Part shown: positions 19,150-47,521 of the stretch, piece by piece
How positions within the stretch are numbered: the stretch's first letter is position 1
How the letters are laid out: the number at the start of each line of letters is the position of its first letter
Assembly: GCA_022703505.1 (NCBI GenBank)
Contig: JAKLDN010000004.1
Coordinates: 186,001-250,000 of the forward strand
Length of the DNA stretch: 64,000 nt
Reading direction: 5' to 3'
Source of the DNA: Spirochaetota bacterium
GTDB lineage: Bacteria > Spirochaetota > Spirochaetia > Treponematales > UBA12059
Position numbers and translations under genes: made by a program
The notes under the pieces: generated by a model
Told to the model about the DNA's origin: nothing
Seen by the model: the letters and a program-made list of their open reading frames with translations, nothing else
Database searches by the model: none

Positions 19150-19258
19150 CCACGGAGGGCACGGAGAGGAGAGGATCCGGAATACGGGGATTCCAGAAAC
19201 CTCGACGAAGCCCGCAGGGCTTCGTTGCCCGACGGGGCGGCTTATGCCGCCCCGTCGG
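19150..19258. repeat. Double-hairpin element, copy A, with a CCACGGAGG head
   Basis: CACCACGGAGGGCACGGAG (19149-19167) is followed by the conserved AACCTCGACGAAG-CCCGCAGGG-CTTCGTTGCC (stem 1, 19206-19224), then a variable stem of 13 perfect pairs (CCGACGGGGCGGC-TTAT-complement, 19229-19258). The second stem ends exactly at the stop codon of gcvPB and could terminate the gcv transcript. Confidence 0.8.
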
Positions 19259-20692
19259 TCAGCCTCTGTAACACAGGATCGGGCACCGGGCGGCGGCCAC
19301 CTCGTCCAGGCGTCCCACGGGGGTGACGTGGGGTGCCGAGTGCAGCAGCTCGGGCTCGGTCCGGGCCTCCTCGGCGATCTTCAGCAGGGCGTCCGCGAAA
19401 GCGTCCAGGGTCTCCCGGGTCTCGGTCTCCGTGGGCTCGATCATCAGAGCCTCGGGGACGATGAGGGGGAAGTAGATGGTCGGCGGATGGAAGCCGTAGT
19501 CGATGAGACGCTTGGCGATGTCCAGGGTGTGCACCCCCTCCACGAAGTTGCCCATGGCCACGAACTCGTGCATGCAGCCCCGGCCGTACTTCAGGGGGTA
19601 GACCTTCTCGACCTTGGCCTTGAGGTAGTTGGCGTTGAGCACCGCGGTCTCCGCCAGGCGCCGGAGCCCCGGGGCCCCGAGCATGCGGATGTAGGTGTAC
19701 GCCCGCACCAGGACCCCGAAGTTGCCGTGGAAGGCCTTGAGGCGGCCGATGCCGGCCTTGGGCATGGCCATGTCGAAACGCCCGTCCTTCTTGACCGCGA
19801 TCGGGCCCGGCAGGTAGTCCGCCAGGCGCTCCCCCGCGGCGACCATTCCGGATCCCGGGCCCCCGCCCCCGTGGGGGGTGGAGAAGGTCTTGTGGAGGTT
19901 GAAGTGCATGACGTCGATGCCCGCGTCCCCGGGCCGGAAGATCCCGGTGATGGCGTTCAGGTTGGCCCCGTCGCCGTACACGAGGCCCCCCGCGTCGTGG
20001 ACGAGCTTCGCGATCTTCTCGATGTTCCGCTCGAAGAGGCCCAGGGTGCTGGGATTCGTGATCATGATCCCCGCCACGGTGTCGTCCAGGGCCGCCGCCA
20101 GGGCGGCCAGATCCACGCCGCCGTCGGCGTCGCTGGGGATCGTGACGGTCTCGAAGCCGACCATGGAGCAGGTGGCGGGGTTCGTGCCGTGGGCCGAGTC
20201 GGGGATCAGCATCTTCACGCGCTTCAGGTCGCCCCGGTCCCGGTGCCACTTGCGGATCATCAGGACCCCCGCCAGCTCCCCGTGGGCCCCCGCGGCGGGC
20301 TGGAGGCTGGCGGCCTTGAAGCCGCCGATCTCGACCAGCATGGCCTGGAGCCGGTACATCAGCTCCAGGGCGCCCTGGGAGAACTCCGCACCCGCCAGGG
20401 GGTGGGTGGTGCGCCAGCCCGGGAGGGAGGCGGCGGCCTCGTTGGCCTTGGGGTTGTACTTCATGGTGCAGGAGCCCAGGGGGTAGAACTCCGTGTCGAT
20501 GGAGTAGTTCTTCTGGGACAGCCGGGTGAAGTGCCGGACCGCGGTCAGCTCGTCGATCTCCGGGAGGGGAAGGTCGTCCCGCAGGAGCCCCTCGGGCAGG
20601 GCGGTCTCGGGGACGTCCGGTTCCGGGAGGGCGGCGCCGCAGCGGCCGGGGGCGGAGAGCTCGTAGGCGAGGGGTTCGGGTCGAAGGTTCAC
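19259..20692 (-). CDS. gcvPB: Glycine dehydrogenase (decarboxylating) subunit 2
   Basis: 477 residues from a GTG (20692) overlapping the gcvPA stop by 4 nt (GTGA). The PLP-binding lysine lies in HFNLHKTFSTPHGGGGPGSG near residue 275. Residues MLIPDSAHGTNPA and the YPLGSCTMKYNPKA block are family hallmarks. With GcvPA it forms the P-protein, which decarboxylates glycine and passes the aminomethyl group to lipoyl-GcvH. It is the last gene of the gcv operon, and a double-hairpin element starts right at its stop codon. Confidence 0.96.
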   Translation of the reverse strand: MNLRPEPLAYELSAPGRCGAALPEPDVPETALPEGLLRDDLPLPEIDELTAVRHFTRLSQKNYSIDTEFYPLGSCTMKYNPKANEAAASLPGWRTTHPLAGAEFSQGALELMYRLQAMLVEIGGFKAASLQPAAGAHGELAGVLMIRKWHRDRGDLKRVKMLIPDSAHGTNPATCSMVGFETVTIPSDADGGVDLAALAAALDDTVAGIMITNPSTLGLFERNIEKIAKLVHDAGGLVYGDGANLNAITGIFRPGDAGIDVMHFNLHKTFSTPHGGGGPGSGMVAAGERLADYLPGPIAVKKDGRFDMAMPKAGIGRLKAFHGNFGVLVRAYTYIRMLGAPGLRRLAETAVLNANYLKAKVEKVYPLKYGRGCMHEFVAMGNFVEGVHTLDIAKRLIDYGFHPPTIYFPLIVPEALMIEPTETETRETLDAFADALLKIAEEARTEPELLHSAPHVTPVGRLDEVAAARCPILCYRG

Positions 20693-40629: not shown

Positions 40630-40693
40630 ACCTCGACGAAGCCCGAAGGGCTTCGTTGCCGCGATGAAAAAGCGCCTAGCGCTTTTTCATCGC
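40630..40693. repeat. Double-hairpin element, copy C, holding the rny stop codon
   Basis: ACCTCGACGAAGCCC-GAA-GGGCTTCGTTGCC (stem 1, 40637-40655) and then a 15-bp perfect variable stem GCGATGAAAAAGCGC-CTA-complement (40661-40693). On the minus strand the TGA at 40689-40687 inside this stem ends rny, so the last two codons of rny and its stop are part of the element. Confidence 0.85.
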
Positions 40694-44038: not shown

Positions 44039-44809
44039 ATGTGGTCCACCTTCGCCCTCTCACCCGGAACGACCTACGCGATCCGGTTCCCGGGGGTCAA
44101 CCTCTATTTCCGCGCCGAGGGGGTCCTCTGGGGCGTCGCCTCGGAGTTCGTCGCCAAGCCCCAGCGCCCCGCCCCGGCCGCGGTGGTTCGGAACCCCCCG
44201 AAAACCCTGGAGTGGAAGTACTCCGCCCTGCTGGGGGCCGCGGAGCTCACCCTCCGCCCTACCCTCTCCCCCCGGGCCTACGAGGTCCAGCTGACCCAGG
44301 CGGTATCCATCCTCCCGGGGGTGGAACTGGACGGGTACGTGTTCCTGCCCCTGCGGGCGGAGGTCCTGGCCGCGGAGGGGACCATCCTGGCCTCCCTTCC
44401 CCTACAGCGCCGGAAGAACTCCTGGTTCGGGTCCCCCCAGGAGGGCGTCCTCTGCGAGGCCGTGGTATCCGCGTTCAGCGCCGCGGAGGAACTGGGAAGA
44501 TTCCTGGCGGATCCTTCCCCGGCCCTCGCGGTCTGTCCCATCTCCGTGCGGAACGACATGGCCGAGGGCATGGACCTGGTCCGGCTCTGCATTCCCACGG
44601 ACATCCTGTCCGTCTACGGCGGGGAGGGGATCTACGCGACGGATCGGGTCCTGTGCTCCTTCACGTCCGACGGCTTGCAGGTCCGGCCGAAGCGCGGCAT
44701 GGACCCCCTGCTGGGACGGATGGAGGTCCGCCACGCGGCCCGGAAGGGCCCCGAGGAACGGTTCTTTTCCCGGGGGATGGACATCCTCCGGTACATCACG
44801 GGAATTTAA
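44039..44809 (+). CDS. DUF432-like protein of unknown function
   Basis: 256 residues from the ATG at 44039, preceded by GGAGGAAG. Beta-rich, acidic and without signal peptide or membrane helix. The segments EWKYSALLGAAELTLRPTLSP, LQRRKNSWFGSPQEGVLCEAV and RLCIPTDILSVYGGEGIYATD look like conserved blocks, and I judge it most like DUF432, which is often found next to or fused with MscS channels. It lies 18 nt before an mscS gene here, supporting a role in channel gating or regulation. Confidence 0.6.
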   Translation: MWSTFALSPGTTYAIRFPGVNLYFRAEGVLWGVASEFVAKPQRPAPAAVVRNPPKTLEWKYSALLGAAELTLRPTLSPRAYEVQLTQAVSILPGVELDGYVFLPLRAEVLAAEGTILASLPLQRRKNSWFGSPQEGVLCEAVVSAFSAAEELGRFLADPSPALAVCPISVRNDMAEGMDLVRLCIPTDILSVYGGEGIYATDRVLCSFTSDGLQVRPKRGMDPLLGRMEVRHAARKGPEERFFSRGMDILRYITGI

Positions 44810-44827
44810 CCCCCAGGAGGAGCCGCC

Positions 44828-45673
44828 ATGCAGGGATCTGCCCCCGTGGTCCGGGCCTTGGACAACCTGAATCTGAGAAAATCCCTGGACGACCTGATCA
44901 CCCTGGAAGCCCTGGGCACGGCCCTCAAGCTCGCGGGAATCCTGGTCCTGGGCCTGATCGTCGTGCGGGTGGCCGTCGCGGTGACCCGGAGGTTCAGCCG
45001 GAAAACCCTTTCCCCCAGGACCTCGGAGCTCCTGGTCAAGTTCGTGCGGTATACCGGCTTCTTCCTTGTGGCCGTGAACCTGGCCAACGCGGCGGGCCTG
45101 GACCTCTCGGCCCTCCTGGGGGCCGCCGGGATCGCGGGGATCGCCATCGGCTTCGCGGCCCAGACCTCCATCTCCAACCTGATCAGCGGGATCTTCCTCC
45201 TGACCGAGAAGGCCTACGCCGTGGGGGACGTCCTGGACGTGGGCGGCGGCACCGTAGGGGTCGTGGATTCCATCGATATGCTCTCGGTCAAGCTCAAGAC
45301 CTTCGACAACCGCCTGGTCCGGATCCCCAACGAGACCCTGGTCAAGTCGAACATCACCAACGTCACCCGCTACCCCATCCGCCGCCTCAACATCAACATC
45401 ACCATCACCTACGGGGACGACATCGAGAAGGCCCGCCGGATCCTACTGGAAACCGCGGACGCCAATCCCTGGATCCTCCGTTCCCCCAACCCCATCTTCA
45501 TCGTGGAGGGCTTCGGGGAGAGCGGGATCAACCTCTTCTTCGGGGTATGGTTCACCAAGGACGAGTTCGTGGACGCCAAGAACTCGATGTACATCGAGAT
45601 CAAGAGGCGCTTCGACGAGGAGAAAGTGGAGTTCGCCTTCCGGACTGTGACGGTGTACCAGAAAAAGGGATAG
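44828..45673 (+). CDS. mscS: Small-conductance mechanosensitive channel
   Basis: 281 residues. Three membrane segments; the third, pore-lining one has LSALLGAAGIAGIAIGFAAQ, the Ala/Gly-packed helix of MscS. The SNLISGIFLLTEKAYAVGDV motif follows, and then the cytoplasmic vestibule (VDSIDMLSVKLKTFDNRLV, RIPNETLVKSNITNVTRYP). It opens on osmotic downshock to release solutes. It shares a transcript with the DUF432-like gene, and its 3' end meets element D. Confidence 0.95.
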   Translation: MQGSAPVVRALDNLNLRKSLDDLITLEALGTALKLAGILVLGLIVVRVAVAVTRRFSRKTLSPRTSELLVKFVRYTGFFLVAVNLANAAGLDLSALLGAAGIAGIAIGFAAQTSISNLISGIFLLTEKAYAVGDVLDVGGGTVGVVDSIDMLSVKLKTFDNRLVRIPNETLVKSNITNVTRYPIRRLNINITITYGDDIEKARRILLETADANPWILRSPNPIFIVEGFGESGINLFFGVWFTKDEFVDAKNSMYIEIKRRFDEEKVEFAFRTVTVYQKKG

Positions 45674-45690
45674 GCCGCCTTTGCAGGACT

Positions 45691-45852
45691 CACCACGGAG
45701 GACACGAGCTCACGGAGGGCGACCGGCCGGCGCTGCCGGCCGGTCGGCGCCGAAGCGAGCTTCGGCGATCCCGACTCCGACAACCTCGACGAAGACCACA
45801 GGTCTTCGTTGCCGCTAGGCTGACATATAGTCAGCCTAGCGCCCTCCGTGGT
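45691..45852. repeat. Double-hairpin element, copy D, enclosed in a larger stem
   Basis: CACGGAGGGC (45711-45720) and GCCCTCCGTG (45841-45850) close a structure with four internal hairpins: 45721-45745 (GACCGGCCGGC-GCT-complement), 45748-45767 (CGCCGAAGC-GA-GCTTCGGCG), stem 1 at 45790-45808 (CGAAGACC-ACA-GGTCTTCG) and a variable stem at 45813-45841 (CGCTAGGCTGAC-ATATA-GTCAGCCTAGCG). The upstream head is CACCACGGAGGACACG. Stem 1 keeps pairing by a compensatory change against copies A and C. Confidence 0.85.
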
Positions 45853-46644
45853 TTAATCAATAAAACCATCCCCGGCGCGGCCCGCGCGGGTGGGCTTGTC
45901 GTAATATTCCACGTTCCAGAGGAAAAGGCCGCAGGCGGGGGCCGTGGACCCGGCCCGGCTCCGGTCCCGGGACTCCAGGACCTCCCGCATCCAGGAAGGA
46001 TCCCTCCCCTCGCCCTGGTACTCCACCATGGATCCCACCAGGGACCGGACCATGCGCAGGAGGAAGGCGTTCGCGGAGATCTCGAAGACCGCCTGCCCGC
46101 ATTCGAACCTCCAGGAGGCGGAGTGCACGAAGCGGTACCGGTTTTCCGAGGGATCCCTCGCGGCCGAGAAGGCGGTGAAGTCGGTTTCCCCGATCAGGAC
46201 GGAGGCCATGGCGTTCAGGGCCCGCAGGTCCGGGACCCGCCGGAGGTGCCAGGCGTACCGGGCGCGCCCGGGAGGGCACTCCCGGGATGTCTCGATGAAG
46301 TATCGGTAGGTCCGGAGCCGGGCGTCGTACCGGGCGTGGAAATCCGGATCCGCCTCCCGGGATTCCAGGATGCGGACATCCCGGGGCAGGAAACGGTTCA
46401 GGGCCAGGCGGAAACGGTCCCCGGGTATGGAGGGCATGTCCGACCGGAAGTGCGCGGTCTGGCGCTCCGCGTGGACCCCCGCGTCCGTCCGTCCCGCCCC
46501 GACCGCCTCCACGGGATGGCCGTGGAGGGCCCCCAGGGCCTTCTCCAGCTCCTCCTGCACGGAGCGGGCGTTCTTCTGCCTCTGCCAGCCGGAAAAATCC
46601 GTCCCGTCGTAGGACAGGTCCAGTCGAACGGTCCGCTCACTCAT
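45853..46644 (-). CDS. truA: tRNA pseudouridine(38-40) synthase
   Basis: 263 residues. Catalytic Asp in VGAGRTDAGVHAERQTAHF (about 50-60), with the YDGTDFSGWQRQ start and ISANAFLLRMVRSLVGSMVE at about 185. It isomerises uridines in tRNA anticodon stem-loops. Its start overlaps the DUF2225 stop by 8 nt; it is the last gene of the operon. The stop codon lies 2 nt from element D. Confidence 0.96.
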   Translation of the reverse strand: MSERTVRLDLSYDGTDFSGWQRQKNARSVQEELEKALGALHGHPVEAVGAGRTDAGVHAERQTAHFRSDMPSIPGDRFRLALNRFLPRDVRILESREADPDFHARYDARLRTYRYFIETSRECPPGRARYAWHLRRVPDLRALNAMASVLIGETDFTAFSAARDPSENRYRFVHSASWRFECGQAVFEISANAFLLRMVRSLVGSMVEYQGEGRDPSWMREVLESRDRSRAGSTAPACGLFLWNVEYYDKPTRAGRAGDGFID

Positions 46645-47521
46645 CGTCGGAATCGTCGTCCTGGTGGAGCTCCGCCTTGATCCGATCGTAGAGGTCCCGG
46701 GCCTTGTCCAGGAGGGGCCCCGGCTTGGCCTTGGATCGCTTGCCCAGGCCGAACATCTTGGCGATGGTGCGCTTGGACTCGTCCAGGATCTTCTCCCGGT
46801 AGGCCGGGTTCCCCCGGTTTCCGTACTTGAGCTCCAGGACCCCGGAGAGGTACAGGGCCCCCTCGTAGCCGTAGTTCTTGTCCGTGTCCGGCCCCATCCA
46901 CCGGGCCCCTCCGATGGGTTCCTTGCCCGACTGCTCCCGTTCGATCGCCCCCCGGTAGAGGACCCGGGCCTTGCGGTAGAAGACCAGGGCCAGGTAGTCG
47001 AAGTTCTCGTTCGGGGCCTTCTCGTGGAGGTGGCCGCAGAGCCAGGCCGCCCGGAGGCAGCACATCGCCCCCTTCAGGGTGGGCGAAAAATCCTTGGGGA
47101 AGTGCTCGTAGCAGAGCACCGCGAGGTAGTAGCTGGCCGCTCCCTCCAGGATCCGCCGGGAACCCTGGAAGTCCAGGCCCTCGAACACCTTCTGGACCTG
47201 GGCTATCCGGGCGGAGGTCTCCCCCTCCAGGACGTCCAGGGCCTTCTGGGGGGCCGCGGAAAAATCGGACCTGAGGGCGGCGTAGAAGCAGGAGGGGCAG
47301 ACGGTCACGTCGTAGACCAGGGGCTGGACCTCCCCGAAGTCCCGCATGGGTATGTACTGCCGGTGGAGCTCGTCCGTGAGGTCCCCCGCGTTCACCCTCC
47401 CGGAAAAAAGCTCCTCCCGGTGGAAAGCCGCCCCGCAGACCGGACAGCGCACGGCCTCCTTGGAGAAGAACGTGATCTTCTTGTCCTTGTCTTCCTTCCC
47501 CTTCATCAAGAGTCCCTTCAT
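46637..47521 (-). CDS. DUF2225 zinc-binding protein
   Basis: 294 residues starting at an ATGA overlap with acpS; a second ATG at 47506 is possible. Two CxxC pairs (CPVC at about 25-28 and CPSC at about 75-78) suggest a zinc site. The rest is helical, with TPR-like stretches (YYLAVLCYEHF, FDYLALVFYRKARVLY) and a Lys/Asp-rich tail (LHQDDDSDDE). Function unknown; widespread in spirochaetes and Firmicutes. Confidence 0.85.
   Translation of the reverse strand: MKGLLMKGKEDKDKKITFFSKEAVRCPVCGAAFHREELFSGRVNAGDLTDELHRQYIPMRDFGEVQPLVYDVTVCPSCFYAALRSDFSAAPQKALDVLEGETSARIAQVQKVFEGLDFQGSRRILEGAASYYLAVLCYEHFPKDFSPTLKGAMCCLRAAWLCGHLHEKAPNENFDYLALVFYRKARVLYRGAIEREQSGKEPIGGARWMGPDTDKNYGYEGALYLSGVLELKYGNRGNPAYREKILDESKRTIAKMFGLGKRSKAKPGPLLDKARDLYDRIKAELHQDDDSDDE

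Follow-up and report, generated by a model that had tools for sequence, protein, structure and literature searches.

BIME and REPIN are terms for arrangements of REP-type repeats, and the origin and upkeep of perfect palindromes are an open problem for REP elements and RNA stems alike. The relevant passages of two articles (PMC3733652, PMC6006769) describe REP, BIME and REPIN sequences as numerous extragenic palindromes that form inverted dimers, lie near 3′ ends and between convergent genes, and occasionally occur within genes. The passages on CGTC-tagged REPs (PMC3733652) add an unpaired CGTC tag, a stem starting with AT pairs and a CCA tail. REP motifs have also been reported in Spirochaetota genomes (PMC12306157), in passages that do not describe the unit plan presented below. 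A different line of work concerns hairpins that arise by template switching. In the sections of Monttinen and Loytynoja that treat its signatures (PMC8794818), adjacent DNA is copied into an inverted arm, several bases change together in pairs and loops are inverted, so that perfect stems and simultaneous compensatory changes appear in one event. Further points of comparison are the small hairpin-associated inversions of plastids, as far as the available descriptions go, in which an interior or loop is flipped between inverted repeats, and the mitochondrial repetitive hairpin elements (PMC2800124), which by their partial description are short, intergenic and contain hairpins.

The element analysed here resembles the REP, BIME and REPIN sequences of those passages in all the respects listed, but it has two hairpins per unit, carries no GTAG or CGTC tag, has no linked RAYT, and contains a locus-specific palindrome whose arms at some loci appear to be copied from the host. 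It resembles the template-switch hairpins as described in its perfect stems, compensatory changes and inverted loops, but here these recur beside one conserved hairpin at many loci, in some of which the source arm is coding. Whereas the plastid inversions offer the same kind of flip, here it occurs at two scales and in a bacterial repeat; and in contrast to the mitochondrial elements, as described, the present one is bacterial and has a variable palindrome. What is special here is the recurrence of copying beside one conserved hairpin. We propose, as the probable explanation, a REP/BIME-like DNA element in which fold-back copying (template switching during replication) both makes and repairs the palindromes.

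Architecture of the element between mscS and truA

The window, by which we mean the whole 64,000-nucleotide stretch of DNA that was analysed, is part of contig C9 of a 3.66-Mb assembly in 14 contigs (G000). The element is flanked by convergent genes for an MscS-type channel (PF00924, PF21082) and TruA (TIGR00071, above cut-off). It was originally predicted to consist of four hairpins within a 10-bp closing stem in 140 nt, and RNA and DNA folds, on both strands, confirm this. In the RNA fold of positions 45711–45850, the closing stem CACGGAGGGC/GCCCTCCGTG encloses four strong hairpins at −98.8 kcal/mol, compared with a mean of −54.1 (sd 3.7) for shuffled sequences (z −12.0; 0 of 200 shuffles fold as well). 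On the minus strand the value is likewise −98.8 (z −9.7), and DNA parameters give −59.2 (z −10.7). The spacer adds a weak stem of 2–3 bp, which is missing from the DNA centroid. Hairpins A and D each share a base with the closing stem (45720 and 45841, respectively), and at these bases the 10-bp stem and the 12-bp hairpins, at their full lengths, compete. The parts are listed below, where R1 denotes the covariance model of the unit that we used for genome searches.

44828–45673, plus strand: MscS-type channel gene, upstream of the element
45684–45717, plus strand: left head, CAGGACTCACCACGGAG...CACGGAG, a degenerate CACRGAG array (from sequence and pattern counts)
45694–45700 and 45711–45717, plus strand: heptamers of the left head, with a decayed one at 45703
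45711–45720, plus strand: 5′ arm of the 10-bp closing stem, CACGGAGGGC (from sequence, RNA and DNA fold)
45720–45746, plus strand: hairpin A, the locus-specific palindrome of unit 1, with 12-bp arms CGACCGGCCGGC/GCCGGCCGGTCG and loop GCT
45748–45767, plus strand: hairpin B, a conserved hairpin of type I, CGCCGAAGC-GA-GCTTCGGCG, then AT (R1 match C9:231716-231770)
45770–45784, no strand: spacer separating the two inverted units
45789–45809, minus strand: hairpin C, a conserved hairpin of type II, reading ACGAAGACC-TGT-GGTCTTCGT on the minus strand (R1 match C9:231784-231845, minus)
45813–45841, minus strand: hairpin D, the locus-specific palindrome of unit 2, with 12-bp arms CGCTAGGCTGAC/GTCAGCCTAGCG and a 5-nt loop
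45841–45850, plus strand: 3′ arm of the closing stem, GCCCTCCGTG (from sequence, RNA and DNA fold)
45844–45851, minus strand: right head, an inverted CACRGAG repeat, CTCCGTGG on the plus strand (from sequence)
45853–46644, minus strand: truA, converging on the element

The four-hairpin structure combines two families of dispersed repeats and is not a single RNA gene. Unit 1 (hairpins A and B, plus strand, type I) and unit 2 (hairpins D and C, minus strand, type II) are enclosed by facing CACRGAG repeats, and it is these repeats that form the closing stem. Similar composites lie at unrelated loci (C11:162040, 90% over 115 bp; C13:83478, 86% over 135 bp), so copies do spread. The arms of hairpin A recur in both, identical in C13:83478 and shortened in C11:162040.

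Plan and distribution of the double-hairpin units

A BLAST search of G000 with the element gave 26 matches, which on reading show a modular plan. Each unit has a locus-specific perfect palindrome (mostly with 12-bp arms and loops of 3 or 4), separated by G or GCA from the conserved hairpin that follows it (CGNCGAAG...CTTCGNCG). This hairpin is CGCCGAAGC...GCTTCGGCG in type I and ACGAAGCCC...GGGCTTCGT, followed by CGA, in type II. R1 found 99 matches in G000 at E<=0.1, of which 94 in 63 clusters were kept, the other five being short opposite-strand echoes of listed units. Nine of the 63 clusters are +/− pairs, i.e. BIME-like inverted dimers, and units alone are far commoner than four-hairpin composites. 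The window contains three further units:

19200–19261, minus strand: unit abutting a stop codon
32307–32367, minus strand: degenerate unit
40631–40685, minus strand: unit at the 3′ end of rny (RNase Y), whose outer arm starts in the last codons of rny

Among 30 genomes (the own genome and relatives), seven have R1 matches at E<=0.001: 80, 69 and 43 in the three genomes of the own genus, 39, 26 and 14 in one other genus, and 2 in one genome of another family. In a phylum sample searched at E<=1e-5 with stricter filters, 5 of 392 genomes matched. A blastn search of plasmids and phages with a 181-base query gave no match, and viral contigs gave 0 matches to the exact type I pattern. Among named genomes, exact type I hairpins point to uncultured spirochaetes. 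They also occur in other phyla (L178, L185, L186, L188, L191, L196) with weak R1 scores of 26.6–37.4 bits, the strongest (37.4 bits, L178) being in a Pseudobdellovibrionaceae MAG. The proteins of 11 loci with clustered units, read by eye, belong to ordinary host genes, among which no transposase was recognised, and literature searches by title or abstract start found no description of this unit family. One degenerate unit (L072:2158-2206) lies within the coding region of an mnmE/trmE-like gene, so named by reading its protein, and locus L184 has seven type I hairpins at a spacing of 43 bp.

Covariation and inversion in the locus-specific palindrome

Covariation among homologues had been suggested as a check on the original prediction, and the stems are indeed kept, with strong covariation. 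In alignment A1, the locus-specific helix has no unpaired cell, 10 of its 12 pairs change on both sides, and one cell is a G-U pair. Alignment A2 comprises 61 distinct rows from loci outside A1, and the ten inner pairs of its helix 2 contain 177 double-changed cells versus 3 single-changed ones (G-U); slid controls are far lower and collapse. The conserved hairpin has more G-U and unpaired cells than the locus-specific helix. Orthologues in G001 and G002 provided 42 rows, one without a hairpin in one species and one unrelated, and thus 40 hairpin comparisons. Their 503 pairs contain 31 double and 7 single changes, where independent changes of the two sides would predict about 2 double and 64 single; in this count some G000 units enter twice, against G001 and against G002, and the two C1:365010 rows were re-paired by hand to match an inverted interior before changes were counted.

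These numbers depend in part on how hairpins were collected. A locus-specific hairpin was extracted from 80 of the 94 units (14 gave none), of which about five are visibly the conserved hairpin instead. The extractor accepts at most one mismatch and up to two G-U pairs, and R1 also demands structure. Since extractor and model both demand a stem, the counts miss decayed arms and understate single changes. The scarcity of G-U steps is not due to this bias, because up to two G-U pairs were accepted.

Loops and interiors have also been inverted. Three of 15 changed loops of the same length, in a list compiled by hand with mostly one row per locus, are exact inversions; the nominal P of 0.0016 is too small, given the few inversions and the fact that TTC and GAA are common loops in the family. 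At C1:365010, the interior of the composite aligns to G001 in reverse (146 bp, 89.7%) while its flanks align forward; orientation is kept in the other eight composite comparisons.

Judged from these sequences, the covariation of the locus-specific stem is of a DNA type, with paired changes that almost lack G-U steps, inversions, and arms copied from host genes (see below). The initial suggestion of a multibranched cruciform or RNA is supported in part. A single multibranched RNA as the functional unit is disfavoured by the DNA-type covariation and by the units being mostly alone, with +/− pairs in only those nine clusters, and a cruciform or single-strand DNA hairpins fit better.

Host origin of palindrome arms at several loci

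We compared twelve sites, and then seven more, with G001 and G002. Four cases show an outer arm that extends into protein-coding sequence with a plain homologue in relatives. At rny, the protein ends in RETRIVEYAR* in 13 of the 13 genomes compared, and palindromes at this end occur only in G000, G001 and G002, with none seen in the ten genomes of other genera. In G002, the coding end is followed by a loop holding the stop codon and then by a 19-nt inverted copy. The inverted copy is imperfect in G001, and in G000 the last codons ACGCGCGATGA start the outer arm of the next palindrome. A SpoIIE-type phosphatase gene (C9:70218) ends in ...GQVIESL*, with homologous ends in G001, G002, G011, G004 and G008, all of which are without a unit there; the inverted copy and the conserved hairpin are found in G000 only. 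A DcuC-type gene (C7:615152) ends in SVAFGYG*, compared with SVAIGYR* in both relatives, both of which are again without a unit. The Vut_1 gene (C2:933) is a partial case, in which a 21-bp arm is native at its start and the remainder is without a clear homologue. We did not count C7:282674: there, the sequence of the outer arm is present in G002 and the inner arm is missing, but a possible remnant lies close by. Long arms (at least 15 bp) occur in 12 of 80 units, which include all these host-arm cases of G000.

Since the source arm is under protein constraint, the inner arm, which adjoins the conserved hairpin, is most simply explained as copied from the outer arm. At the rny, SpoIIE-type and DcuC-type loci, an arm is a reverse-complement copy of flanking DNA that existed before, as expected of template switching. 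The loci without a unit may be losses. Furthermore, arms need not be host-made: those of composites are alike between copies (e.g. CGACCGGCCGGC, at three loci), so arms also travel with the element. The setting is nevertheless a useful one, in that many loci are available within a single bacterial genus, and at some of them the source arm belongs to coding sequence that protein function holds constant. Because source and copy can be told apart at these loci, fold-back copying is directly testable. The setting also cautions against taking compensatory changes by themselves as proof of RNA selection.

Proposed fold-back copying beside the conserved hairpin

We infer the fold-back copying from its products. 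In the proposed mechanism, the conserved hairpin would stall oncoming DNA synthesis, and the new end would fold back on itself, at an apex that is rich in GC and usually reads GGC or CGC, and copy the sequence just synthesised. The copying strand would then rejoin the template at the CG that adjoins the conserved hairpin, where it precedes the GC of that hairpin. The outcome would be that perfect palindromes are made and kept in repair, with loops or interiors flipped now and then. Among 80 units, 66 have CG at the foot of the arm and 52 have GGC or CGC at the apex, as would be expected if the fold-back starts at a GC-rich apex and returns at CG. Tandem arrays (C8:436287, C9:19179 and others) have a repeated segment that starts in or near the palindrome loop, which suggests synthesis errors at the hairpin, and the inner copies of several arrays (L075, L078, L094, L098, L184) have one arm only.

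A more far-reaching version, which we advance tentatively, is that the conserved hairpin acts in cis as a palindrome maker, with fold-back during replication writing an inverted copy of the adjoining host DNA at any place where the hairpin happens to be. If this is true, the element continually renews its second hairpin out of whatever sequence is local, the final codons of important genes among it, and nested copies are flipped at two scales, that of the loop and that of the whole interior.

Location at 3′ ends and a possible role in RNA

For gene calling we used a codon-model gene finder whose seed set comprised six genes of the window that, going by their proteins, we took to be real. With these calls, 30 of the 63 clusters lie between convergent genes, 25 between tandem and 3 between divergent genes, 4 are inside a predicted gene and 1 is unassigned. 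Convergent pairs thus account for 30 of the 58 classified intergenic clusters versus 9 of 59 gene pairs in the window (Fisher P 3e-5). Of 70 locus-specific palindromes, 53 face the 3′ end of a gene, and the stop codon is often no more than a few bases away; 10 of these 53 begin exactly at the stop codon. At C9:205200, the G001 unit lies inside a CACAGAG element downstream of the gene, and in G000 the intervening head is missing; this comparison points to one way in which palindromes can come to abut stop codons.

The preference for convergent genes, the orientation towards 3′ ends and the very stable RNA fold would all be accommodated by an RNA element at 3′ ends, i.e. by bidirectional terminators or mRNA stabilisers between convergent genes whose stems are kept paired by selection on the RNA. 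Such selection could favour perfect stems, but it should leave G-U pairs, and the variable stem is almost without them. It also does not account for inverted loops, an inverted interior, or coding sequence copied into arms. Moreover, no T-tract terminator was predicted at the element, which supports the early view that the structure goes beyond a terminator, and no consistent T-tract was seen. We therefore regard this explanation as rather unlikely. A role in RNA (termination or 3′-end stability) is possible as a secondary function, and locations 3′ of genes may just be tolerated sites.

Relationship to tagged REPs and RAYT genes

The DNA element that we favour has the general properties of REPs: many extragenic palindromic copies (94 in 63 clusters, with 4 of the 63 inside a predicted gene), inverted dimers, and a 3′ location in convergent or tandem arrangement. 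Dispersed extragenic palindromes, inverted dimers and 3′ location, together with the five Y1_Tnp genes of the genome, could suggest a REP/REPIN family of the classical kind that is moved by a RAYT (Y1 HUH transposase). However, GTAG directly precedes the palindrome in 3 of 80 units (GT[AG]G in 4 of 80), and a TAG before the palindrome, where present, is usually the stop codon of the gene. On inspection of A1, the CGTC of type II is mostly paired, and there is neither an AT start nor a CCA tail. The five Y1 genes of G000 have no significant unit in their flanks of 1.5 kb (best E 0.11, L030). No REPtron, i.e. a RAYT/tnpAREP gene flanked by repeats, emerged from the 14 Y1 loci scanned with R1, which gave one weak match (E 0.001, L115 of G010) and two at E>0.1. 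Furthermore, G002 has 43 units and no Y1_Tnp match, whereas units are absent from G008 and G009, which have 6 and 5 Y1 genes, respectively. Since the defining tags and the RAYT linkage fail, we do not place the element in the tagged REP superfamilies, and mobilisation by a RAYT is unlikely.

The Y1_Tnp genes, being neither linked to nor co-distributed with the units, were rejected as a RAYT partner. The five in G000 (L027–L031) are solitary, encode proteins with MRKPRELKEGALYHVTARANR-like starts and have no units nearby.

The CACRGAG heads

The CACRGAG pattern occurs 37 times forward and 33 times in reverse in G000. Heptamer arrays are present in 61 of 296 phylum genomes, with up to 96+97 (193) copies of the double-heptamer pattern, and often occur as facing pairs; a reversed control of the pattern gave almost no matches in the 296 genomes. 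The units are distributed differently, so heads and units are two independent families, and the original prediction was right in this respect. A literature search with six CACRGAG strings of 15–16 bases found no paper containing any of them.

One could instead see a MITE here, with the heads as terminal inverted repeats and the pair of double hairpins as its interior. In most +/− composites, heads do face each other (C10:26809 and C1:630044 have a head on just one side), and some copies have an outer inverted repeat, CAGGACTCACCACGGAG. However, CACRGAG in 61 of 296 phylum genomes contrasts with units in 5 of 392, most units are without heads, and between mscS and truA in G001 the same facing heads surround unrelated sequence, all of which makes a MITE improbable, even more so than a RAYT-mobilised family. 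Least plausible is a discrete structured small RNA or riboregulator: the fold is complex, stable and covarying, but the window has 0 Rfam matches at the gathering threshold, a scan of 44800–46700 showed no promoter-like site, the units are dispersed and mostly single, and their variation is of a DNA type.

Between mscS and truA in G002, a head and the first arm of hairpin A are kept and fused to the end of truA. The truA open frame there (L119) ends within the element remnant, and the last residues of the protein are changed. In G001 and G002 (L120, L204, L208), CACRGAG elements that are free of units carry another repeat inside, which is rich in AACAGGAT/GACAGGAT motifs.
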